Of a stretch of DNA of 32,829 nucleotides, positions 9,218-24,987 are shown piece by piece; position 1 is the first letter of the stretch, and each line of letters begins with the position of its first letter. The notes below the pieces were generated by a model that saw only the letters and a program-made list of their open reading frames with translations, ran no database searches and had not been told where the DNA came from. A program made the translations under genes and the position numbers. The stretch is from Fidelibacterota bacterium (lineage in GTDB: Bacteria > Fidelibacterota > Marinisomatia > Marinisomatales > TCS55). The stretch is taken from NCBI GenBank assembly GCA_029936965.1, contig JAPYRG010000017.1, positions 13,709-46,537 on the forward strand, in the 5' to 3' direction.

Positions 9218-11317
9218 ATGGAATTATCTTTTTTAAAATCGGCTGATATCTGGTTTTGGTTTTTTGTTATTATTTCATTTATAATAGTAGCTTTCTCCTT
9301 CATATTTATAAAAAACCATTCCGAATTAAAATTGTTAATCATCTTGAGAAGCATAACATTTATAATAATTACCTTCTTACTATTACAACCAAAATTTTCG
9401 TGGATCCATTTTAATTATAGTAAATTAGATTGGAATTTATATGTTGATAATTCAGTAAGCATTTCATATCACCCAGCTTTATCATTTCAGACTATTAAAA
9501 CAGAGCTTGAACAAATTATATTAAAAATTTCAAAAAACATTACTGTCACAAATCTTTTTTCTTTTTCTGATGAAGTAAAAAAAATTGAAAATACTAATGA
9601 AATTGACGGTTCTGGATCTTCAACAGATTTGGGAAGAGTACTTAGTCATATTCAGATAAATCAGGACAACTTAGCTGGTGCAATAATTATCACTGATGGA
9701 CAAAATAACCATGGAATTGACCCTCTAAATTTGATAAAAAATATAAATGTTCCAGTTTTTACTTTAGGTGTAGGTGAATCAAAGCCATCAATAGATTTAA
9801 GTATAGAGAGCGTGGATGGTCCAACTGTAGCTATTAAAGGCGAGAAAGTTAATATTACTATAACAATTCTTTCTTTTGGTGATTTAAGGGAAAAAGTTAA
9901 CGTAATGCTGTTTAGTGAAAAAAGAATGATTGGATCAAAATCTTTAAATATAAATGGACAAGGATCTAGCAATGAGGCGCGATTTATTTTTTCACCTATT
10001 AATCTTGGAGAAAATGAGTATATAGTTAAAGTTTCAAGTTTGGCTGAGGAAATCAACATAGATAATAATCAACAAACTTTTTTCATCACTATTTTAAAAG
10101 ATCGTTATAAAGTAGCTCTAATTACTGGTGTACCAAGTTTTAATACTGGAGTAATAAAAGACTATATTAATAATTATCCACGCGTTGAACTTGATCACTT
10201 TATTCGATCTAAAAATGGATATTCTCCCTCATTAAAATCATTCTGGTCAACACCTTATCAATTAATCGTTTTTGATAATTATCCTATTGATGTCTTAAAA
10301 TCTAAGACACAGAAAATATATTCAAAAAAAATAACTTCTGAGAAAGCTTCGCTTTTATGGGTCATAGGTCCAAATGTAACTAAAAAATCTTCCCAGTCAC
10401 TGACACCTTTTTTTCACTTAGATTTAATAAAAGAAAATATTAATTCGGATAAGATATCTTGGTATTTTACTGAAGAAATAATAAATAGTAATGTTATTCA
10501 GGGTTTATTAACTATTCATGATAGTAATCATTCAGATATTTTTCCACCAATTATAACACCCTATAAATTTAATAGTAAGCATGATAAAGTAATACCAATT
10601 GCATACCTTGAATCTGAAGAAGTTATTCCAGTGCTTTTTATGGGTGAAGTAAAAAACATCCGTAGTATTGTATGGACATCAAACGATCTTTCTACTATTA
10701 AGTATAATATTTCTAATTCTAATTCAAATAATATTTTTCCTGAAATTTGGTCAAAACTATTTTCTTGGTTATTGAAAACTGGTGGTGATAAGAATCTATA
10801 TTTTCGTTTAAATAAAGACTCATATCAGCAGGGTGAAGAGATATTAATTACTGGAAGTAGCGTACAGGATTATATTAACAATCAAGCATTTATAACTATA
10901 ATTAATGATAGTATTGAGATTAATTCTTTTGAATTAAGGTTTAATCCTGAGACTGTTCGATGGGAGGGTAATTTTTGGGCTCCTAAGCCTGGTGATTATA
11001 ACTATAAAATTGTAATTCAAGATGGACTAACTGATCCAATGGTGCAGAATGGAAAATTTATTGTTGAAAAAAGCCAGATAGAATTAAACCAAGTCTCTTT
11101 AAATTTTCCTCTACTTGCAAATATTTCAAATATTACAGAAGCTGAATATTTTTCTTGGAAACTTCGATCACAACTGGTTGATAAGATTACACCTATAGAA
11201 AGCAAACGTAAGATAAATAAATCCATTGTTTTAAATGAGAATAAATGGGTGATGATAATGTTGATTATATTATTAACTATCGAATGGGTTTTTAGAAAAA
11301 GAATTGGTTTACCTTAG
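9218..11317 (+). CDS. VWA-domain membrane protein, BatA-like architecture with possible glutamine-amidotransferase-like domain
   Basis: A 699-residue membrane protein I do not recognise as a named gene. Two N-terminal transmembrane helices (about residues 11-31 and 36-56) are followed by a von Willebrand factor A domain with an intact metal site. The DxSxS motif is D77, S79 and S81, a Thr lies at about 136 (SSTDLG), and an Asp is in IITDGQNN (D160). Next come an Ig/CARDB-like beta region (about 185-290) and an alpha/beta segment starting KVALITGVPS (about 298-400). That segment could be the degenerate class-I glutamine-amidotransferase-like domain seen in related proteins. A second beta domain and one C-terminal helix (about 677-692) end the protein. 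Similar architectures occur in putative periplasmic quality-control or envelope proteins. Function is unknown. It begins one base after the tsaD stop. Confidence 0.7.
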   Translation: MELSFLKSADIWFWFFVIISFIIVAFSFIFIKNHSELKLLIILRSITFIIITFLLLQPKFSWIHFNYSKLDWNLYVDNSVSISYHPALSFQTIKTELEQIILKISKNITVTNLFSFSDEVKKIENTNEIDGSGSSTDLGRVLSHIQINQDNLAGAIIITDGQNNHGIDPLNLIKNINVPVFTLGVGESKPSIDLSIESVDGPTVAIKGEKVNITITILSFGDLREKVNVMLFSEKRMIGSKSLNINGQGSSNEARFIFSPINLGENEYIVKVSSLAEEINIDNNQQTFFITILKDRYKVALITGVPSFNTGVIKDYINNYPRVELDHFIRSKNGYSPSLKSFWSTPYQLIVFDNYPIDVLKSKTQKIYSKKITSEKASLLWVIGPNVTKKSSQSLTPFFHLDLIKENINSDKISWYFTEEIINSNVIQGLLTIHDSNHSDIFPPIITPYKFNSKHDKVIPIAYLESEEVIPVLFMGEVKNIRSIVWTSNDLSTIKYNISNSNSNNIFPEIWSKLFSWLLKTGGDKNLYFRLNKDSYQQGEEILITGSSVQDYINNQAFITIINDSIEINSFELRFNPETVRWEGNFWAPKPGDYNYKIVIQDGLTDPMVQNGKFIVEKSQIELNQVSLNFPLLANISNITEAEYFSWKLRSQLVDKITPIESKRKINKSIVLNENKWVMIMLIILLTIEWVFRKRIGLP

Positions 11318-11370: not shown

Positions 11371-12678
11371 ATGAAAAAAATTACAATAATCGGGACAGGA
11401 TATGTTGGCTTAGTTAGCGGGGCTGGACTTTCAGATTTTGGTAATAATGTATGTTGTTCAGATATTAATAAAGAAAAGATCGAATTATTAAATAAAGGTG
11501 TGATTCCGATTTATGAACCCAGTTTGTATGAATTAGTTAATAGAAATGTCAAATCAAAAAGATTGATATTTTCTGATAATGTCAAGGATTCTATACAATC
11601 TGCTGAAGTAATATTTATTGCAGTTGGCACGCCTGAAGGCAAAACTGGAAATGCAGACATAACGACTGTTTTACAAGTTGCAGAATTAATTGGGAAAAAT
11701 CTGAATAACTATAAAGTTATTTGCACAAAGAGTACTGTACCCGTAGGCACTGGAAAGAAAATTATTGATGTAATAAATAAATATAATCAAAATAATATTG
11801 AATTTGATTACTGTTCAAATCCGGAATTCTTAAGAGAAGGTAAGGCTGTCTCGGACTTCCTTCATCCTGATAGGGTTGTTCTAGGTGTTGCTAGCAAAAA
11901 AGCTTATGATTATATGAAAGTTGTTTATCGTACGCTATATATTAATAAAACACCTTTAATTCAAACAACAATTGAAACTGCTGAAATGATAAAATATGCT
12001 GCTAATGCATTCTTAGCTTTGAAAATAAGTTATATTAATGAGGTAGCGAATCTTTGTGATGAAATTGGTGCAGATATAAATATAGTAACAGAAGCCCTTG
12101 GTTCTGATGGTCGAATAAGCCCAAAGTTTTTGAATCCAGGTCCTGGTTTTGGAGGATCCTGTTTTCCAAAAGATACTAAAGCATTAATTCGCATAGCAAA
12201 AAAACATAATCTTGATATGTATACTGTTGATGCGGCAATTAAAGCTAATGAAAATCAAAAAATCAGGATGCTTAATAAACTCGAAAAACTACTTAAAGGA
12301 AATTTTAACAAAAAAAAGATAGGTATTTTAGGATTAGCTTTTAAGCAGGAGACAGATGATGTTAGGGAATCTTCTGCGATTTATATGATTTCAGGATTAA
12401 TAAAACGTGGTGCAAATATTAAAGCTTATGACCCTATAGCAAATGATTCTATGAAAAAATTAATTCCAGGAATTGATTATAAATTAAATTGGGAATCTGC
12501 TGTAGAAGATTGTGATGCTGTAGTAATTATGACTGAATGGAATGAATTTAGAGGAATAGATTTATCTAAACTTAAGGAATTAATGTGTTCCCCAATTATC
12601 CTTGATACCAGAAATATTTTAAATATTATTGAGCTAAAAAGATTAGATTTTACATTTGATAATGTAGGACGAAAATGA
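11371..12678 (+). CDS. ugd: UDP-glucose 6-dehydrogenase
   Basis: Oxidises UDP-glucose to UDP-glucuronate, a precursor of acidic capsules. The Rossmann signature GTGYVGL is at residues 8-14. The substrate segments FIAVGTPEG and NPEFLREG and the lysine in MIKYAANAFLA (K208) follow. The catalytic cysteine is C264 in GFGGSCFPKD. The C-terminal UDP-binding domain contains GLAFKQETDDVRESS. At 435 residues it is complete. It opens the polysaccharide locus after a 53-base AT-rich gap and overlaps rmlC by ATGA. Other family members oxidise UDP-ManNAc or GDP-mannose, but the motif set and length fit Ugd best. Confidence 0.93.
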   Translation: MKKITIIGTGYVGLVSGAGLSDFGNNVCCSDINKEKIELLNKGVIPIYEPSLYELVNRNVKSKRLIFSDNVKDSIQSAEVIFIAVGTPEGKTGNADITTVLQVAELIGKNLNNYKVICTKSTVPVGTGKKIIDVINKYNQNNIEFDYCSNPEFLREGKAVSDFLHPDRVVLGVASKKAYDYMKVVYRTLYINKTPLIQTTIETAEMIKYAANAFLALKISYINEVANLCDEIGADINIVTEALGSDGRISPKFLNPGPGFGGSCFPKDTKALIRIAKKHNLDMYTVDAAIKANENQKIRMLNKLEKLLKGNFNKKKIGILGLAFKQETDDVRESSAIYMISGLIKRGANIKAYDPIANDSMKKLIPGIDYKLNWESAVEDCDAVVIMTEWNEFRGIDLSKLKELMCSPIILDTRNILNIIELKRLDFTFDNVGRK

Positions 12679-13225: not shown

Positions 13226-14290
13226 ATGAATAACAATATTTTAGTTACAGGTGGCAGTGGATTTATTGGTTCAAACTTTATTCAATATCTAATAAATAAT
13301 ACTGATTATCAATTAATAATTAATTTGGACAAATTAACTTATGCGGGAAACCCTGATAATTTAATCAACTTAGAAAATGACCCGCGTTATGAATTTATTA
13401 ATGGTGATATTTGTAATAAAGATTGTATCAAAAAAATATTTCATGATTATAAGCCCAATAAAATTGTACACTTTGCAGCTGAAAGTCATGTGGATCGTTC
13501 TATTGATGGTCCTAAGGATTTTATTAATACTAATATTATTGGGACATACTTTTTACTTGAAGAATCATTGTCTTTCTACAACAGGTTAAATAAACCGTCA
13601 AAGTCTTTTTTCAAGTTTCATCATATTTCAACTGATGAGGTTTTTGGGAGTCTTGGAGAAAGTGGGTCTTTTACAGAAAATACTCCCTATGATCCAAGTT
13701 CACCATATTCAGCTACAAAAGCTTCTTCTGATCATCTTGTGCGTGCTTGGTTTAGGACTTTTGGATTACCAGTAACTATTTCAAATTGTTCAAACAATTA
13801 TGGGCCATATCAGTTTCCTGAAAAATTAATTCCATTAATGATAATTAAATGTTTATCAGAAAAGTCGCTTCCTATCTATGGAAAAGGTGAGAATATACGT
13901 GATTGGCTATACGTGGAAGACCATTGTAAAGCAATAGATTTAATTTTACAAGATGGCACAATTGGTGACACATATAATATTGGTGGAAATAATGAAATAA
14001 GAAATATTAGCATTGTTGAATCAATTTGCAGTGTTTTAGATAGGTTAAGCCCTGCAAATTCTGGAAAACTTTACCATGAGTTAATAACATATGTTACAGA
14101 TCGTCCTGGACATGATTATAGATATTCTATTGATTCAACTAAAATTAAAAATGATTTAAATTGGGAGCCAAAGGAAACCTTTGATACGGGATTAATTAAA
14201 ACAATAGAATGGTATCTTAAAAATGAAGTTTGGTGGAGAAAAATAAAAGATCATGTATATAAACAAGAAAGACTTGGTGTTTCATCTTGA
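13226..14290 (+). CDS. rfbB: dTDP-glucose 4,6-dehydratase
   Basis: RmlB/RfbB makes dTDP-4-dehydro-6-deoxyglucose using bound NAD. An extended short-chain dehydrogenase with the GxxGxxG motif TGGSGFIG (residues 8-15), the THR-ASP-GLU catalytic trio at T136-D137-E138 in HISTDEVFGSLG, and the YxxxK pair Y161/K165 in SPYSATK. The substrate-binding NNYGPYQFPEKLIP and the RDWLYVEDHC segment are also present. Length of 354 is typical. It follows rmlC directly and overlaps the exporter gene by TTGA, so the three sugar-nucleotide genes and the export genes look like one transcript. Confidence 0.96.
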   Translation: MNNNILVTGGSGFIGSNFIQYLINNTDYQLIINLDKLTYAGNPDNLINLENDPRYEFINGDICNKDCIKKIFHDYKPNKIVHFAAESHVDRSIDGPKDFINTNIIGTYFLLEESLSFYNRLNKPSKSFFKFHHISTDEVFGSLGESGSFTENTPYDPSSPYSATKASSDHLVRAWFRTFGLPVTISNCSNNYGPYQFPEKLIPLMIIKCLSEKSLPIYGKGENIRDWLYVEDHCKAIDLILQDGTIGDTYNIGGNNEIRNISIVESICSVLDRLSPANSGKLYHELITYVTDRPGHDYRYSIDSTKIKNDLNWEPKETFDTGLIKTIEWYLKNEVWWRKIKDHVYKQERLGVSS

Positions 14291-15291
14291 AAATAAGAAA
14301 AAATAGTCATCATTTTTTTTATTTATATATTTTAGTAATTATTAATATTGCTTATACACAATCTTCTAACCAGTTAGATGCTACTCAATTAGATAAATCT
14401 CAACAACCAATAATATATCGTGAATATGGAGTGAAACCTCTTCCTTTAGAAAGTGCGATTAATCCAGAAGAATATTACTTGGGACCAGGAGATAGATTAA
14501 GGATATTATGGTCTGTAGAAAATATTGATAATTTTGTTACAATAGGTCCGACCGGAAATTTAATTGTTCCTGAGATTGGTCCTATAAATGTCTTAGGTAA
14601 AACTTTAGCAGATGTTGATCGTGAAATAAATGAAGAGATAAAACAAGTCTATAAATCAGCGAAAGTTTCTATAGATCTTATCCGATTTAGACAATTTAAG
14701 GTGCTCGTTTACGGTGCTGTGAATAGACCTAGATATGTTAAAATGGCTCCAGTAAGTCGATTTAATGAAGCAATTAATGAAGCTGGAGGTCTACAGAAAT
14801 ATGCGGATTCAGATAGAGCTGTTTTAATTAGAGCAAATAAAAGTAGCAATATATTTATTAAAGAATTTTTACTATATGGAGATGTAAAAAATAATCCATA
14901 TTTAATAGATGGTGATAAAATTTTCGTACCCTTTAAAGGTATTAACGCTGAAGAACAAAAAAAATATATGGAATATGATAATGCAAATAAAGTTTTAGTA
15001 ACAGGGTTTGTTATTAACCCAACTGCACATTATTTTCGTCCAGGGTATAGCGCAAAAGATTATATAGCCTTAAGTGGAGGATCATTAGATGTTGGTTCAT
15101 CAAAAAGGGTGAGAATATTAAAAAAAGATGGTAGAATATTGAAAAGAGCATATAATGAGACTATTGAGCCAGGGGATATTGTTGATATACCAGAAACTTA
15201 TGGTAGTATAATCTTTGGGAATACAGGATTTGTCCAAGCCTTAACATCAATTGCGACACTAATGTTGGCATATCAAGCAACACTTAGATGA
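14287..15291 (+). CDS. Polysaccharide export outer-membrane protein, Wza/SLBB family
   Basis: A periplasmic/outer-membrane exporter of the Wza (OPX) group. It has an N-terminal signal peptide (residues 1 to about 24, cleavage near AYT-QS) without a lipobox cysteine. A Poly_export domain (about 62-132, starting YYLGPGDRLRI) and two SLBB domains (about 137-185 and 235-285; VYGAVNRPRYV and VTGFVINPTAHYF) follow. The last 22 residues (GFVQALTSIATLMLAYQ) are hydrophobic and could be the outer-membrane helix seen at the C-terminus of Wza. Absence of a lipid anchor differs from E. coli Wza. The TTG start lies in a TTGA overlap with rmlB, and the ATGA at its end starts the Wzz-type gene. Confidence 0.87.
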   Translation: MKIRKNSHHFFYLYILVIINIAYTQSSNQLDATQLDKSQQPIIYREYGVKPLPLESAINPEEYYLGPGDRLRILWSVENIDNFVTIGPTGNLIVPEIGPINVLGKTLADVDREINEEIKQVYKSAKVSIDLIRFRQFKVLVYGAVNRPRYVKMAPVSRFNEAINEAGGLQKYADSDRAVLIRANKSSNIFIKEFLLYGDVKNNPYLIDGDKIFVPFKGINAEEQKKYMEYDNANKVLVTGFVINPTAHYFRPGYSAKDYIALSGGSLDVGSSKRVRILKKDGRILKRAYNETIEPGDIVDIPETYGSIIFGNTGFVQALTSIATLMLAYQATLR

Positions 15292-16694
15292 GCATAAATT
15301 TATCACCTCATGAAAAGAAAATTTTATCACTAGTTGATAAATACCCTTCTATTATTGATGATCCATTAGAAAGAAAACGTGTAGCAGAATTAAATGGTAT
15401 GTCTGAAAAAACTCTTCGTAATAGAATTGCTGATTTAAAAAGATATGGAATAATTGGTGATAAAAATCGTGCGCAGAATTACAATATTAGTGAGGAAGAA
15501 GGATTTGTTGGAAGTTTTTTACTATTTTGGAAAAGTAGAAAATTTATTTTTAAGAATATGATTATTGTGACTATATCTGCTATAATTATATCTCTTTTAT
15601 TACCAAAGTGGTATGCATCAAAGGCAGTTGTGCTTTCTTCAGGCGCTGGGCAATTTAATTTTTTATCTTCTATTTCACCTATCCCAGTTGCGGATTTTGG
15701 ATTATCTACAATTAATGAAGATATTAATAATTTTATTGCAATACTTCAGAGTAGGACTGTGAAAGAATATATGGTTAATAAATTCAATTTAATTGATAGA
15801 TATAAACAAAGAGATATTGAATATGCAATTGAAGCTTTTGAAGAAAAAATAGAATTAGAAGTAACAGAAGAAGGAACATTAGAAATAACCATTATTGATA
15901 AGGATCCCTTAATTGCTAAAGAAATGGTAAATGAAGTTCTTTTTATGTTGGATCAGATTAATCAAAGTATTGGGATGGAAGCTGGTAAATATAATCGAGA
16001 ATTCTTAGAAAATAGGATCAATATAAATAATAAAGACCTTGAAAAGGCCGAACTTGCTTTAAAAACTTTTCAGGAAAAAACTGGTATTATTGATTTAGTT
16101 GCCCAGTTATCCAGCACTATGCAAATGAGTGCACAAGCATATAATTCAATTTTTGAAGCATATACATCATTATATGCAAAAAAGATTGAAACTGAAACAG
16201 AATTAGCAGTTGCCAAAACAACTTTATCAAATAATAATCCTACTATAATGCAGCTTGAAAAACTTTTAGATGTACAGACAATTCAACTTGATCAGCTAAT
16301 GATAAGATTAGATGAGAAATTGCAATATTTATTATCTAATATTTCTCCTGCCCAAATTGACACTATACCAAATATTGAGTTTTCAGTTTCTTTTAATACT
16401 TTGCCATCTTTAGGACTAGAAAATGCTAGACTAATTCGTGAGGTCGAATTACAAAGCACTATTCAAGAAATTCTGATTCCACAATTTGAACAAGCCAAGC
16501 TGGAAGAAACAAAAAACATTCCAACACTTCAAATAATTGATAAGCCTAAGGTTGCATTAAATAAAACCAAACCAAAAAGATCATTAATAGTAATTGGATC
16601 GACAATTATGAGTTTTTTAATGTCTTTAATATTTGTTTATACTGATCATAGAACGAAGGGATTCCGATTAGCTATTAAGCAAAGCAAGTTTTAA
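15288..16694 (+). CDS. Wzz/GNVR-type chain-length protein with N-terminal helix-turn-helix domain
   Basis: A polysaccharide co-polymerase that would set chain length with the Wzy polymerase. Residues 88-106 form transmembrane helix 1. A large periplasmic region (about 108-430) holds the Wzz fold and coiled-coil stretches. Transmembrane helix 2 (about 432-452) follows the typical Lys/Pro-rich KTKPKRSL segment. There is no cytoplasmic kinase domain. Unusually, residues 1-65 read as a winged helix-turn-helix: a helix at PHEKKILSLVDKY, then ERKRVAELNG, turn, SEKTLRNRIADLKRYGIIG. That domain would sit in the cytoplasm. The Wzz identity is firm from topology and context; the HTH is called from pattern only. 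Start ATG overlaps the exporter stop by four bases. Confidence 0.8.
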   Translation: MSINLSPHEKKILSLVDKYPSIIDDPLERKRVAELNGMSEKTLRNRIADLKRYGIIGDKNRAQNYNISEEEGFVGSFLLFWKSRKFIFKNMIIVTISAIIISLLLPKWYASKAVVLSSGAGQFNFLSSISPIPVADFGLSTINEDINNFIAILQSRTVKEYMVNKFNLIDRYKQRDIEYAIEAFEEKIELEVTEEGTLEITIIDKDPLIAKEMVNEVLFMLDQINQSIGMEAGKYNREFLENRININNKDLEKAELALKTFQEKTGIIDLVAQLSSTMQMSAQAYNSIFEAYTSLYAKKIETETELAVAKTTLSNNNPTIMQLEKLLDVQTIQLDQLMIRLDEKLQYLLSNISPAQIDTIPNIEFSVSFNTLPSLGLENARLIREVELQSTIQEILIPQFEQAKLEETKNIPTLQIIDKPKVALNKTKPKRSLIVIGSTIMSFLMSLIFVYTDHRTKGFRLAIKQSKF

Positions 16695-18061
16695 TGCTTC
16701 TACTTATAACTTTTTCTATTACTCAAATATTATTTTTTCTTATAGGTATCAATACATCTCCATTAGTGATGATTATTTTACCTATAGGTGTGATTATATT
16801 TTGGTGGTTAATTAACAATCCATCTATTTCTTTAATGTTTTTAAGTCTAACAGCAATTATTAAAGGATATTTTATTAATTATAATCCTATTTTTGAAATA
16901 TTAGATATTACTGTTGTAGCAACAATTATTATCTGGCTTGGATTAATTAAGATCCTTATCCAAGATGGTTGGAATATTCCAAAAAATTTAAAGGAAATTA
17001 TTTATATATTTATATTTTTTGGATTTGTACTTGGCCTTTCATATTTATATACACCATCCCCTGAGTATGGATTAATGAAAATAATTCGTTTTAACACCTT
17101 TGCACTAACCATGTTTTTGACTCCTTTTCTTGTAATTAAATCACCAGAAGATTCAAAAAGGCTTCTGAATTATTTTTATTTTCTTTTAGCGATTATTGTT
17201 GGTATAATGTTATTCCAATTTATTTATTTTTTAAAATGGGGAAATTTTGCAATTGTTTTAGCATATTGGAATAGAATTTCAATTCCTGGTGCAAATCCTA
17301 TACAAGTTAGTCGATATTTAGCAATTGGTGCAGCAATGTTGATAGTATTATTAATAAGAAAAAAACCTACTGATAGCATAAGTTATATTCTCATTCTATC
17401 TATAATATTATTAACGATCATTCTATCAGGATCTAGAGGTCCATTAGTAAGTATAATTTTAGGTTCAATAATCTATGCAATGCTCTATGAAAGAAATCAC
17501 TATATGAAAATTATTTTATATGCATCAATTGCAATAGGAACCATTATCTTAATTCTACTTTTATTACCTGAAAATCTGACTCAAAGGTTTTTTGATATTT
17601 CACAAGGTTCAGTTATTATTACTCAACAAGGAGTTAAAAGAGTAAGTACTATAGCAACTAGATTTGAATTTTGGTCTATGTCATTAAAATCATGGATCTC
17701 TTCAATAGTAAATTTTGTATTTGGTCTTGGATCAGGAGGTTTTAGTTCATTATTTATTTGGAGAGATTGGAGATGGTATCCACATAATATATTTTTTGAG
17801 ATCATTGTTGAGCTAGGATTTATTGGATTAACTCTATTATCATTATTTATTGCAAAAACGTATAAATTAATTAGCCAAGGTCTAAATAGAGGGTCATTTA
17901 CTGATCATTCAGCATTATGGGTAGCAGGTACAACCGTTATGTTTATTGCTGCTCAATTTTCCGGTGATATAAATGATAATAGAATCCTTTGGATGTTTCT
18001 GGCAATTTCAATAGCCTCAACGAATGTTGATAAGTTATTAGTTTTAGATACTGATAGTTAA
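16694..18061 (+). CDS. O-antigen polymerase/ligase family membrane protein (Wzy-like)
   Basis: A 455-residue inner-membrane protein with roughly eleven or twelve hydrophobic helices. It has the loop signature of the Wzy_C/O-antigen ligase family: SGSRGPLVS at about residue 243 and the late RWYPHNIFFEIIVELGFIGL region (HN..E...E.G..G). In this setting, between Wzz-type and Wzx-type genes, it most likely polymerises lipid-linked repeat units in the periplasm. A ligase (WaaL) role cannot be excluded from sequence because both families share the fold. The start overlaps the preceding stop in TAATG. A 38-base AT-rich spacer follows. Confidence 0.82.
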   Translation: MLLLITFSITQILFFLIGINTSPLVMIILPIGVIIFWWLINNPSISLMFLSLTAIIKGYFINYNPIFEILDITVVATIIIWLGLIKILIQDGWNIPKNLKEIIYIFIFFGFVLGLSYLYTPSPEYGLMKIIRFNTFALTMFLTPFLVIKSPEDSKRLLNYFYFLLAIIVGIMLFQFIYFLKWGNFAIVLAYWNRISIPGANPIQVSRYLAIGAAMLIVLLIRKKPTDSISYILILSIILLTIILSGSRGPLVSIILGSIIYAMLYERNHYMKIILYASIAIGTIILILLLLPENLTQRFFDISQGSVIITQQGVKRVSTIATRFEFWSMSLKSWISSIVNFVFGLGSGGFSSLFIWRDWRWYPHNIFFEIIVELGFIGLTLLSLFIAKTYKLISQGLNRGSFTDHSALWVAGTTVMFIAAQFSGDINDNRILWMFLAISIASTNVDKLLVLDTDS

Positions 18062-21707: not shown

Positions 21708-23327
21708 TTACCATTCCCAACTAATTCCAAACCGAATCTGTCTGTCATCCTTGGATCTTGAATTAAAGCCACATTGAACATCAATATATCTGGATAGTTT
21801 ATAATCTATTAATAATGTAATTATTCTATTATAGTTGATTGGTTTTAGTAGTAGAGGAGTATCATTATCCAAAACTGGATCACGTTCTATGTAGCTTTGA
21901 TTAATGCTGCTACCTAAACCTGTACCTTTTCTATAGTAATCAAAAGATCCTTTAATAAATATTTTTGATGATGGAAAGAAATTAGTGCTGATACTAATTA
22001 AATCTGAGCTTGGACCAAAAGGGTGCCCCAAAGATATATTTGCAGATGAAAAAGCATTAATTGAGTCTTTATGAGAATATACCCAAGGCCTACTTAATGT
22101 ATACTCAATTCGAATGTCTGGAACAGAAGGATTGCTTGATAGAATAAAGTGCAATCCTGATTGAAAAACGAATTTATTTCCCCACCAAGGCTTAAACAGC
22201 TTTGACCAAGTTATTTCATCTAATAACATCGTTTGATAAAATCTCATATTAGGTCTTATTCTCCATGAATAATCAATGCCAATGAGAAGGTTATCTCGAT
22301 CACCAGTATTATGTTCTACAGCCCAATACCAATGAGCAGGATTTAGATAGTCTAGATCTATATTCCTATTACCATATATTGCTAATTCTGTTATTGAAAT
22401 AGTAAAATTGTTTGTTATATCTATTTCCCCTCTATGAGCTGCGATATATTTACTTGGACTATAAACTCTTTTATGCATTTCATAAGGACTGTATGGCATG
22501 AGAGAGCCGTGTAAGGATCGAAATCGAATTTTACCAAAATTAATTTGTAGACCGATATATGAGAAAGGCATTCCATCGCCTGATAGTATTGGTGAAGAAT
22601 TTGTTGACCATCCCCAGCTATGATTCTGTCTTCCAAGATTAAAATTTAACTTATCGAAATCAATAGATATTCCAGCTTGGCTATTATACCAAAAAATGGA
22701 TTTAACTTCAGGAAAATATTTAGCCCATTCATTATTGTAGTTGTACCAATCTATGCTGTCTGGCGGCAAAACAGACTCAATAATTTTTCCGTTATTTTTC
22801 CAAACCAGACGATTCATAGAAAATTGTGTGTATGCGGATATTTGTTTAGATATTATTGTTTTTAATGAAATGTTATCTTGAAAATACGTATGATAATCAT
22901 TAGAGGTTGACATGACTAGATCCTCACTCCAATCTATCCATATCGATGAACTGTCATTCTTTATACTTAAAAAATGAGGCTCTACATCATTAATATTGTA
23001 AGATAAAAGATGATTCAATTTATTTTTTTTTGAAAAAGGTAAGTTTATTCCAGAAATTTTTGGACTTATAAATTCGCTTATAAATTGTTCAGCTAATATG
23101 CGGGTGTTATTATTTATTTCATCATTTTCTTTGACCTTATTTAATAATGACAAAACTTGATCAATTGTTAAAGGCCTAACTGATTGAATCCATTGAGGCA
23201 ATATTCCATTAGTTGATTGTCTATATAAATAGGGATATACATTATGATCAGGGCTAACAGGAATTTTTTGTGCAAACAAAAATGGACATAAAATATACAC
23301 GATAGAAATTTTTATATATTGCTTCAT
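21708..23327 (-). CDS. Capsule assembly Wzi-family outer-membrane protein
   Basis: A 539-residue outer-membrane barrel related to Wzi, the lectin that anchors capsule at the cell surface. A signal peptide spans residues 1 to about 19 (cleavage near LFA-Q). The mature part is rich in alternating beta-strand motifs such as FNLGRQNHSWGWSTNSSPIL (residues about 230-249), the conserved Wzi feature. The protein ends in FGISWEW, an aromatic C-terminus expected for BAM-inserted barrels. It is the only gene of the locus on the minus strand, convergent with the GT2 gene and divergent from the phosphoglycosyl transferase gene. It is therefore transcribed from its own promoter in 23328-23577. Confidence 0.85.
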   Translation of the reverse strand: MKQYIKISIVYILCPFLFAQKIPVSPDHNVYPYLYRQSTNGILPQWIQSVRPLTIDQVLSLLNKVKENDEINNNTRILAEQFISEFISPKISGINLPFSKKNKLNHLLSYNINDVEPHFLSIKNDSSSIWIDWSEDLVMSTSNDYHTYFQDNISLKTIISKQISAYTQFSMNRLVWKNNGKIIESVLPPDSIDWYNYNNEWAKYFPEVKSIFWYNSQAGISIDFDKLNFNLGRQNHSWGWSTNSSPILSGDGMPFSYIGLQINFGKIRFRSLHGSLMPYSPYEMHKRVYSPSKYIAAHRGEIDITNNFTISITELAIYGNRNIDLDYLNPAHWYWAVEHNTGDRDNLLIGIDYSWRIRPNMRFYQTMLLDEITWSKLFKPWWGNKFVFQSGLHFILSSNPSVPDIRIEYTLSRPWVYSHKDSINAFSSANISLGHPFGPSSDLISISTNFFPSSKIFIKGSFDYYRKGTGLGSSINQSYIERDPVLDNDTPLLLKPINYNRIITLLIDYKLSRYIDVQCGFNSRSKDDRQIRFGISWEW

Positions 23328-23577
23328 AAATGAATTTTATGATTAACTAATGTTTATACAAATAGAAAGGATAATTATTTTTATTCTTTGTTGTATCATT
23401 AAATATAAAAAACTAACTTTAAATAATTGCACGGAGTTATATCGAATTAAACGTTAACAGTATTTAATAATTCATCAAATCAAATAGTTGAGGGAATTTT
23501 ACTGTTATGCGTATAGAACTTTTCGGTGTGATCCAGCTCAATGTGCATGTATCCACCAATAATATAGATTAAAGCTG
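23328..23577. promoter_or_regulatory. Divergent intergenic region between wzi-like and phosphoglycosyl-transferase genes
   Basis: This 250-base gap must hold promoters for both flanking genes, but I see no convincing -35/-10 pair. The right half (about 23500-23560) is less AT-rich than the left. It contains a possible 21-codon ORF (ATG 23507, stop 23570-23572) with a weak GAGGG 12 bases upstream of its ATG. The ORF ends 5 bases before the transferase ATG at 23578, so a leader peptide or coupled translation is conceivable. No terminator-like hairpin was found. Confidence 0.35.
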
Positions 23578-24987
23578 ATGTCTTACGAAACGTTACAGCA
23601 TCTGCGCATCCGTTTGCCAAAATGGCTAACTTCATGGTCAATATTTCTATTAGATCTAATCCCATCTTTTATTGCTTATAAATATTTTCTAATTCCTGAT
23701 CTTATAATATCTGTAAATAAAATTATTTTCTATTTTATTTGCATCCAGATATTTTGGAGTATATTATTTCTAAGTTTAAATCTCTATAACTCTTCTGCAA
23801 CATCTTCAAGATTCATTGAAATTCAGAGATTAGTCCTCACAACATTTACTATAGTTGTATTAATGATCTTTTTTGATGCAATTAATTATCTTAATTGGCC
23901 GATTAATCCGCAGACTACAGTGAGATATTGGTTTGTTTTTACATTTGGTTTTATAACTTCTAGAGTAATATTTCGAACATTTCAAAAATATTTATTAAGA
24001 AAAGGATTTGGTCGAAGCAATGCAGTAATTGTAGGATTCAATTCTCGAGGTATTGAGACTGCAAAACAAATCATTGATCATAATAATTTAGGTTATGATA
24101 TTATTGGATTTGTTCAAGCAGTTGATGATAAAAATATAAACCAATATGATTCTAGTATACCAATTTTGGGTGAAGAGAAACAATTAAAGGATATTATTCT
24201 TAACAATCAAGTTTCTGAAGTAGTGCTTGCTTTAGAACAACTGCAGCATAATAGAATGATGGAAGTAATTACGCATGCCAATGGATCGCCAGTATCAATA
24301 AAAATTGTTCCTGATATGTACGAAGTGATCAGCGGATTAGCAAGGACAGAGCAAATCTACGGTGTCCCGTTAATTCAAGTAAACCCCAATCTTAATACAT
24401 TCTATAATAAATATTTAAAGCGAGTATTAGATTTAATTATTGCTATCCCTTGCTTAATGATATTTTTACCTTTTTGGTGTATTATTTCTATTTTCATTAA
24501 GCTTGATTCTTCTGGACCTGTACTCTATAAGCAAAATAGAATGGGTGAAAATAATACAAGATTTACTGTAAGGAAATTTCGATCAATGCACTATGATGCG
24601 GAAAAAGATTCTGGGCCAGTATGGGCTTCCGATGAGGATCCGCGAATTACACGAACTGGAGACTGGTTGCGAAGGTTTAGACTTGATGAGATACCACAAT
24701 TAGTTAATGTAATTAAAGGTGAGATGAGCCTAGTTGGTCCTCGTCCAGAACGCCCTTTTTTTATTGATAAACTAATGCAAGAATTTCCATTTTATTATAG
24801 AAGGCATAAAGTCCGTCCTGGTATTACTGGTTGGTCTCAAATCAAACAACCATATGATAAAGATATAGATGATGTCCGAAAAAAATTGAAATATGATTTT
24901 TATTATATAGAGAATCTTAGTTTTTCTTTGGATGTTAAAATTTTAGCAAGCACTTTTTGGGTAATGCTTTCTGGTAAGGGTAGATAG
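23578..24987 (+). CDS. Undecaprenyl-phosphate sugar phosphotransferase (WcaJ/WbaP type)
   Basis: This polyisoprenyl-phosphate hexose-1-phosphate transferase would load the first sugar onto undecaprenyl phosphate, starting repeat-unit synthesis. Four to five N-terminal membrane helices (about residues 18-140) are followed by a Rossmann-like CoA-binding_3 domain (about 145-265). The catalytic bacterial sugar transferase domain (about 276-469) has [20 protein letters not shown] at its membrane hairpin. The catalytic dyad is D370-E371 in RLDEIPQL, next to [10 protein letters not shown] and [10 protein letters not shown]. Glucose-1-phosphate is the commonest substrate in this family, but galactose is possible. 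It is separated from the main run by the inverted Wzi gene. Confidence 0.92.

Follow-up and report, generated by a model that had tools for sequence, protein, structure and literature searches.

The locus and its polysaccharide co-polymerase

The window, namely the whole stretch of 32,829 nucleotides that we analyzed, derives, judging by its closest relatives, from a bacterium of the phylum Candidatus Neomarinimicrobiota, also called Fidelibacterota, an uncultured oceanic group, and holds a polysaccharide cluster comprising ugd, rmlC, rmlB, wza, a wzy-type gene, a flippase-like gene, glycosyltransferases and an initiating transferase (table 1). Two further genes have no match in Pfam or NCBIfam: one encoding 699 aa at 9218-11317, which lies between tsaD and ugd where the operon begins and is retained in many relatives, and one encoding 539 aa on the opposite strand within the cluster (21708-23327).

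Table 1. Coordinates of the features discussed in the text, given as positions of the window
Feature	Position	Strand	Basis
ugd, UDP-glucose/nucleotide-sugar dehydrogenase, early operon gene	11371..12678	+	Pfam, NCBIfam
ugd codons YEPSL (TAT GAA CCC AGT TTG), eroded form of the CCCGGGC element of other HTH operons	11512..11526	+
wza-like polysaccharide export protein (Poly_export, SLBB)	14287..15291	+	Pfam; overlaps start of HTH gene, which it adjoins in nearly all related loci
Wzz/Wzc-type polysaccharide co-polymerase with N-terminal HTH	15288..16694	+	ORF with ATG start, 468 aa; Pfam; Foldseek; order-wide orthologues
HTH domain, residues 5-58	15300..15461	+	Tri-helical in AlphaFold; Csa3 profile match; HTH_24 in relative L106
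Helix 3 (recognition helix), residues 40-53, with EKTLRNR	15405..15446	+	Invariance in 34 sequences
Variable low-confidence linker, about residues 59-83, where a wing would sit	15462..15536	+	pLDDT, dN
Transmembrane helix 1, residues 84-104	15537..15599	+	AlphaFold; hydrophobic, RKFIFKN just before; topology from knowledge of the PCP family
Periplasmic co-polymerase domain, long coiled-coil helices	15600..16577	+	AlphaFold, Foldseek
Transmembrane helix 2, about residues 431-455, followed by a short cytoplasmic tail; kinase absent	16578..16652	+	AlphaFold
Wzy-like polymerase/ligase family (PF04932)	16694..18061	+	Pfam
Initiating polyprenyl glycosylphosphotransferase (WbaP/WcaJ type)	23578..24987	+	Domain matches, NCBIfam

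The gene whose start overlaps the stop codon of wza (ATGA) encodes a polysaccharide co-polymerase (PCP). This identity follows from the Pfam matches of the 468-aa protein to Wzz (residues 80-165; 28 bits, cut-off 25.5, E 2.7e-6) and GNVR (residues 381-451; 31.8 bits, cut-off 27.7, E 1.3e-7), from the topology of its full-length AlphaFold model and from the Foldseek matches of that model, namely Wzc (9r64, E 9e-13), WzzE, KpsE and FepE. The model, obtained with 28 sequences and having a mean pLDDT of 77.5, consists of an N-terminal helical domain, a helix at residues 84-104, a periplasmic coiled-coil and a helix at residues 431-467. A pair of membrane helices thus flanks a helical periplasmic domain as expected of PCPs, and the linkage to wza/wzy/wzx that characterizes them is found at the locus too. 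The first-pass annotation had placed the first membrane helix at residues 88-106 instead of 84-104 and had described a Wzz-type chain-length protein fused to a helix-turn-helix (HTH) domain, which Pfam, AlphaFold and the retention of the fusion in orthologues all bear out. By homology with Wzz and Wzc, the protein would assemble into an oligomeric ring and control chain length. The protein family also suggests that the HTH lies on the cytoplasmic side of the membrane, in support of the earlier view of a cytoplasmic, membrane-tethered domain.

The protein stops after its second membrane helix and has no partner kinase above cut-off, which sets it apart from PCP-2a proteins (Wzc) with their BY-kinase; no match to TIGR01007 above cut-off was found in the window's own genome, and such matches occur in only 5 of 61 relatives. 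Two of these five genomes (G048 and G059) have a co-polymerase without HTH. Most genomes with the HTH, including that of the window, have no BY-kinase above cut-off, which leaves the HTH as the sole cytoplasmic effector domain carried by the co-polymerase. This situation fits with the HTH replacing the kinase in this role, although the remaining three genomes have both.

The N-terminal HTH domain

AlphaFold modelling of residues 1-71 with an alignment of 34 sequences predicts helices at residues 7-18, 20-23, 26-35 and 40-53, with pLDDT values of 91-94 across residues 11-50 and nothing ordered beyond about residue 58; in the full-length model, pLDDT lies below 50 at residues 58-71. These boundaries agree to within a few residues with those proposed earlier. 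The previous assignment of a winged HTH to residues 1-65 holds for the tri-helical HTH itself, but not for its wing, since no strands that could form a beta-hairpin after helix 3 appear in the AlphaFold models and the region following this helix is variable; the HTH is thus confirmed, whereas the term winged is unproven.

In Pfam searches, the HTH is sub-threshold in the window sequence alone (HTH_Crp_2, 0.005 with residues 1-88), and the relative L106 matches both HTH_24 (28.3 bits, cut-off 21.9) and LexA_DNA_bind (23.9 bits, cut-off 23.7). The OmpR-type winged HTH (PF00486), which is the Trans_reg_C domain of ToxR and CadC, gives no match with the window domain at E 1 and reaches 0.017, below cut-off, in one archaeal relative. 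Profile searches of solved structures retrieve Csa3 transcription factors, which carry a wHTH, as the nearest relatives (E 1e-6), with SEKTLINKIAELKKFG of Csa3 aligned to SEKTLRNRIADLKKYG of the HTH family, and Lrp/AsnC proteins more weakly. In Foldseek searches with the HTH, DNA-binding domains of the Lrp/AsnC and LuxR types are among the leading matches, but with E-values no better than 0.08. Judging from its predicted fold, the N-terminus is a genuine HTH of DNA-binding type, which would bind DNA, and the protein shares with transmembrane transcription regulators the combination of such a domain and a membrane segment in one chain.

Distribution and conservation of the fusion

To define the distribution of the domain, we searched 245 Neomarinimicrobiota genomes with its profile at a threshold of E 0.01. 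Matches were found in 72 of the 245 genomes, with 61 counted as strong; all but one of the latter (60/61) belong to the window's order, the remaining one (G213) lying outside the window's class. The strong matches all open a co-polymerase frame, save for contig ends and one single-cell chimera, and the 245 genomes contain no HTH-only paralogues with strong scores. Related genomes keep the fusion, with an uninterrupted frame in dozens of them, and no Neomarinimicrobiota genome has the extension as a separate gene. (In the single-cell assembly, L107 4926-6326, the 3' part of HTH-wzz is inverted on the other strand, which looks like an amplification chimera.) The same co-polymerase occurs without HTH in two relatives of family f13 (L023 and L026). 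Of note, the co-polymerase of L084 (4890-6683), identical to that of L009, has 598 aa and a charged repeat (MQERRQLHEKEMQERRQLQEK...) inserted in its coiled-coil.

All 34 aligned sequences, three of them archaeal, share the motif EKTLRNR without change, even though whole proteins are as little as 28% identical. The mean frequency of the top residue is 0.88 in helix 3, 0.69 in the HTH, 0.50 in the periplasmic part and 0.30 in the linker. The latter (residues 59-84) is nearly unconstrained, with dN of 0.2-0.7 versus 0.03-0.2 in the HTH, and dN/dS among close relatives is about 0.05 in residues 1-58, similar to the rest of the protein. Because it is conserved across the order and its residues 1-58 are under purifying selection, the HTH is not a chance resemblance.

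A scan of 84,980 species genomes detected the HTH in Neomarinimicrobiota, in records seemingly misnamed for them and in three euryarchaea; no relatives were found in viral contigs, phages or plasmids. Two records, labelled Legionellales (L062) and Chloroflexi (L090), contain Neomarinimicrobiota HTH-wzz operons and are probably misbinned or misnamed, since L062 matches the window protein at 84% and the scores of L090 equal those of the Marinimicrobia record L091. The three marine euryarchaea (L097 4959-5303, L114 4965-5303 and L115 4950-5303) encode a protein of 112-117 aa with the same HTH and a single C-terminal membrane helix; the membrane anchor is thus kept and the co-polymerase is absent, and synteny is conserved among the three contigs. 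Reading its sequence by eye, we take the neighbour of the archaeal gene to be archaeal translation initiation factor 6, and other neighbours are common too. In a tree of 61 columns, the archaeal HTHs are placed beside sequences of family f8 (support 89/89, from few columns). This placement suggests a transfer from bacteria to archaea, with family f8 of Neomarinimicrobiota as the probable source. The occurrence of a near-identical HTH with only a membrane anchor in marine euryarchaea suggests a portable membrane-tethered regulator module.

A conserved octamer in HTH-carrying operons

A conserved DNA octamer, the palindrome GCCCGGGC with core CCCGGG, occurs in operons that carry the HTH and not in HTH-less ones. 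Across all HTH loci, the 251 kb upstream of the HTH gene contain 65 copies, whereas the 260 kb downstream contain none. Of the 47 loci having at least 4 kb of upstream sequence, 39 possess the octamer; two further loci (L069 and L071) have ACCCGGGC in ugd, and in the f3 genome L185 the octamer lies just past 5 kb. Four genomes that look HTH-less and have the ugd element were not taken as exceptions: in G003, G005 and G025 the contig stops short of the expected HTH gene, and in G053 the N-terminus of the co-polymerase is cut off.

The octamer lies in intergenic and promoter regions, in wza within the codons for GPGD (frame 1) and signal-peptide ARA (frame 0), in ugd within those for EPGL (frame 2) and VARAIG (frame 0), and also in the gene that precedes ugd. 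Since it spans three coding frames as well as intergenic sequence, no single protein motif explains it. The operon of family f7 has wza-wzz at its start, divergent from serS, and in 17 aligned serS-wza intergenic regions of this family the octamer is the longest invariant block (mean column identity 42%). In many f7 loci, octamers are paired 369-449 bp apart, one in the promoter region and one in wza GPGD (e.g., L088 3094/3486 and L104 3097/3485), a spacing compatible with DNA looping. Below the octamer, the serS-wza regions (e.g., L107 3003-3264 and L104 3007-3279) contain a second conserved block, AAGGAATACTATCGA...TGCGCCCAGTTTA...AAAGGCAA, in which the starting AAGGAAT could pair with a later ATTCCTT; this block matches nothing in Rfam and yields no structure in RNAalifold. 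Rfam leaders or riboswitches were not matched in the window and seven loci, RNAalifold gave no conserved structure for the f7 serS-wza regions, and a sigma-70 promoter scan of one region did not rise above shuffles.

Genome-wide, TGCCCGGGC occurs in one to three places each in G042, G054 and G007, one of them located at the operon or immediately before it and the rest scattered in unrelated ORFs, a scarcity which rules out a genome-wide iterated palindrome of the HIP1 kind. Genomes of higher GC hold more octamer-type sites, and the reversed-pattern control behaves likewise for G110.

The constraint is visible at the level of codons. Background codon use predicts GGCCCGGGC in about 0.26% of GPG, and it is seen in 16/18 cases in f7. 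Among the 55 degenerate columns of the wza alignments, the three GPG codons rank highest, each being 95% identical (the next column reaches 78% and the mean is 50%), and in the ugd EPGL of HTH genomes the codons CCC (17/17) and GGG (16/17) come first and second among 106 columns (the next reaches 71% and the mean is 44%). The amino acids of EPGL and GPGD are retained in HTH-less genomes but encoded differently, with CCCGGG in none of 17 ugd genes and the octamer in none of 24 wza genes; the element was not found in the ugd of f13 operons either, which have the order ugd-wza-wzz without HTH. The difference in ugd CCCGGG between HTH and HTH-less genomes has a Fisher p of 1.5e-8, although related genomes are not independent; HTH presence and octamer share phylogeny, so that few independent losses underlie the association. 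Fixed within the codons of wza and ugd, the octamer illustrates with unusual clarity what looks like regulatory DNA inside coding sequence.

CCCGGG is absent from the operon of the window genome and from those of its nearest kin (L061/L180 and L181; G004 and G002), all of which have an unaltered HTH. At the ugd site, L061 has CCC GGT and the window CCC AGT. Since the octamer has decayed in this subclade, it is not the present target in the window genome, where any target would be different or lost. Scanning of 23328-23577, the region previously proposed for DNA binding, revealed no CCCGGG-type candidate site, and the octamer was not found at the archaeal HTH loci.

Possible autoregulation and alternative explanations

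The reading that we favour, at a probability of about one in two, is that of a membrane-tethered autoregulator in which the HTHs of the co-polymerase bind the octamer and regulate their own operon according to the state of assembly. An inner-membrane oligomer of the co-polymerase would expose several HTH domains, arranged as a ring, on its cytoplasmic face, and in most relatives these domains would recognize GCCCGGGC (core CCCGGG) where the operon begins, in the promoter region, wza and ugd. The operon would thereby be tethered to the machinery of assembly, and its transcription coupled to the state of the latter. Oligomerization, DNA binding, the octamer as target and the sign and trigger of regulation are parts of this scheme that we infer. 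Counting in its favour are the fusion in the strong matches, the invariant EKTLRNR, the kinship with Csa3, the distribution of the octamer, the anchored archaeal HTH and the lack of a BY-kinase above cut-off in most HTH genomes; counting against it are the window subclade and archaea without octamer, the lack of a predicted wing, the shared phylogeny and the fact that HTH folds can bind proteins. The coupling of assembly to expression that the first-pass annotation had suggested gains from the apparent confinement of the octamer to HTH-carrying operons and loses from its absence in the window's own subclade; for the family, the regulatory claim is moderately likely. More tentatively, and at somewhat less than even odds, the chain-length machine would itself be a transcription regulator of its own operon, reading an octamer in promoter and codons and providing direct feedback without kinase or cytoplasmic regulator.

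Two alternatives appear unlikely to a similar degree. The HTH might be a protein-binding adaptor in the style of RodZ and MreB, recruiting a glycosyltransferase or cytoskeleton partner and having nothing to do with the octamer. RodZ offers a precedent and the window lineage does retain the HTH without octamer, but the invariant residues fall in the predicted recognition helix, the nearest solved relative (Csa3) is a DNA-binding transcription factor, and the limitation of the octamer to HTH operons would be left unexplained. Alternatively, the octamer could be read by another factor or act as an RNA or DNA pausing signal, for example in antitermination of the RfaH/ops kind, its restriction to HTH operons reflecting shared operon ancestry. 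The location of octamers in early operon genes, the frequency of NusG paralogues in polysaccharide operons and the retention of the HTH in the octamer-free window operon are consistent with this possibility. However, an RfaH/ops-like element is disfavoured by the single NusG of several HTH genomes (G007, G020, G054, G120 and G143, the octamer having been checked directly for G007 and G054); moreover, the f7 intergenic site consists of the palindrome alone and shows no RNA structure that is conserved, and f13 operons without HTH have no octamer-type element in ugd.

It is considerably less probable that the HTH serves to attach the chromosome, or the capsule locus, to the capsule machinery so as to coordinate them in space or with the cell cycle, and not to control transcription. 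In pneumococcus, the co-polymerase partner CpsD binds ParB and so ties capsule synthesis to chromosome segregation (PMC4574921), and pairs of octamers about 370-450 bp apart are present in many f7 loci, yet the sites lie at the operon start and are not spread across the chromosome. Finally, an artefact of start site or assembly, with the HTH as a separate short gene or chance resemblance, might be suspected from the window sequence falling below the Pfam HTH cut-off, but is rejected by the genome-wide profile search with its fusion throughout the strong matches of the phylum, by the unbroken frame in dozens of genomes, purifying selection and invariant motif, and by the chimeric nature of the sole split case (L107), in which the rest of wzz is inverted.

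Comparison with known systems

No description of the HTH-co-polymerase fusion was found in the open-access literature searched, of which coverage was partial, and we regard the protein as a new architecture of known parts, accompanied by a DNA element that is both testable and surprising. It resembles the PCPs of the Wzz/Wzc/KpsE type (PF02706, PF13807) in its two membrane helices, periplasmic coiled-coil and wza and wzy-like neighbours, and it is matched to Wzc, WzzE, KpsE and FepE by Foldseek and HMM searches; it differs in having no tyrosine kinase and in its cytoplasmic N-terminal HTH of about 58 residues, which the matched solved members lack. With transmembrane transcription regulators of the ToxR-CadC kind (PMC10269533), it shares a cytoplasmic DNA-binding-type domain on a membrane protein with a periplasmic domain. 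Here, however, the latter is a component of polysaccharide assembly and no dedicated sensor, and the HTH is not of OmpR/ToxR type by the matches found; a survey of these regulators does not mention Wzz in its main text (PMC10269533).

In Group B Streptococcus, the N-terminus of CpsA, a membrane protein of capsule assembly, binds the promoter of the capsule operon (PMC8875755). CpsA (LytR-CpsA-Psr) belongs to an unrelated family, that of a Gram-positive wall ligase. The CARF-wHTH regulators of CRISPR systems, Csa3, include the best solved sequence relative of the HTH; the palindrome reported to be associated with Csa3, TCCCN8GGGA, has CCC/GGG half sites as does the octamer, and the same study found DNA binding by Csa3 to be non-specific in vitro (PMC8699464). 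In contrast to the HTH co-polymerase, Csa3 is soluble and controlled by cyclic oligoadenylate.

By its architecture, the protein can also be likened to RodZ, a bitopic membrane protein of envelope synthesis with a cytoplasmic N-terminal HTH. The HTH of RodZ contacts MreB and is not known to contact DNA. Feedback from the assembly of surface polysaccharides to gene expression is mostly known via kinases or separate regulators; if the reading proposed here is true, a co-polymerase with its own DNA reader would make the link between assembly and expression direct, with a candidate target at hand.
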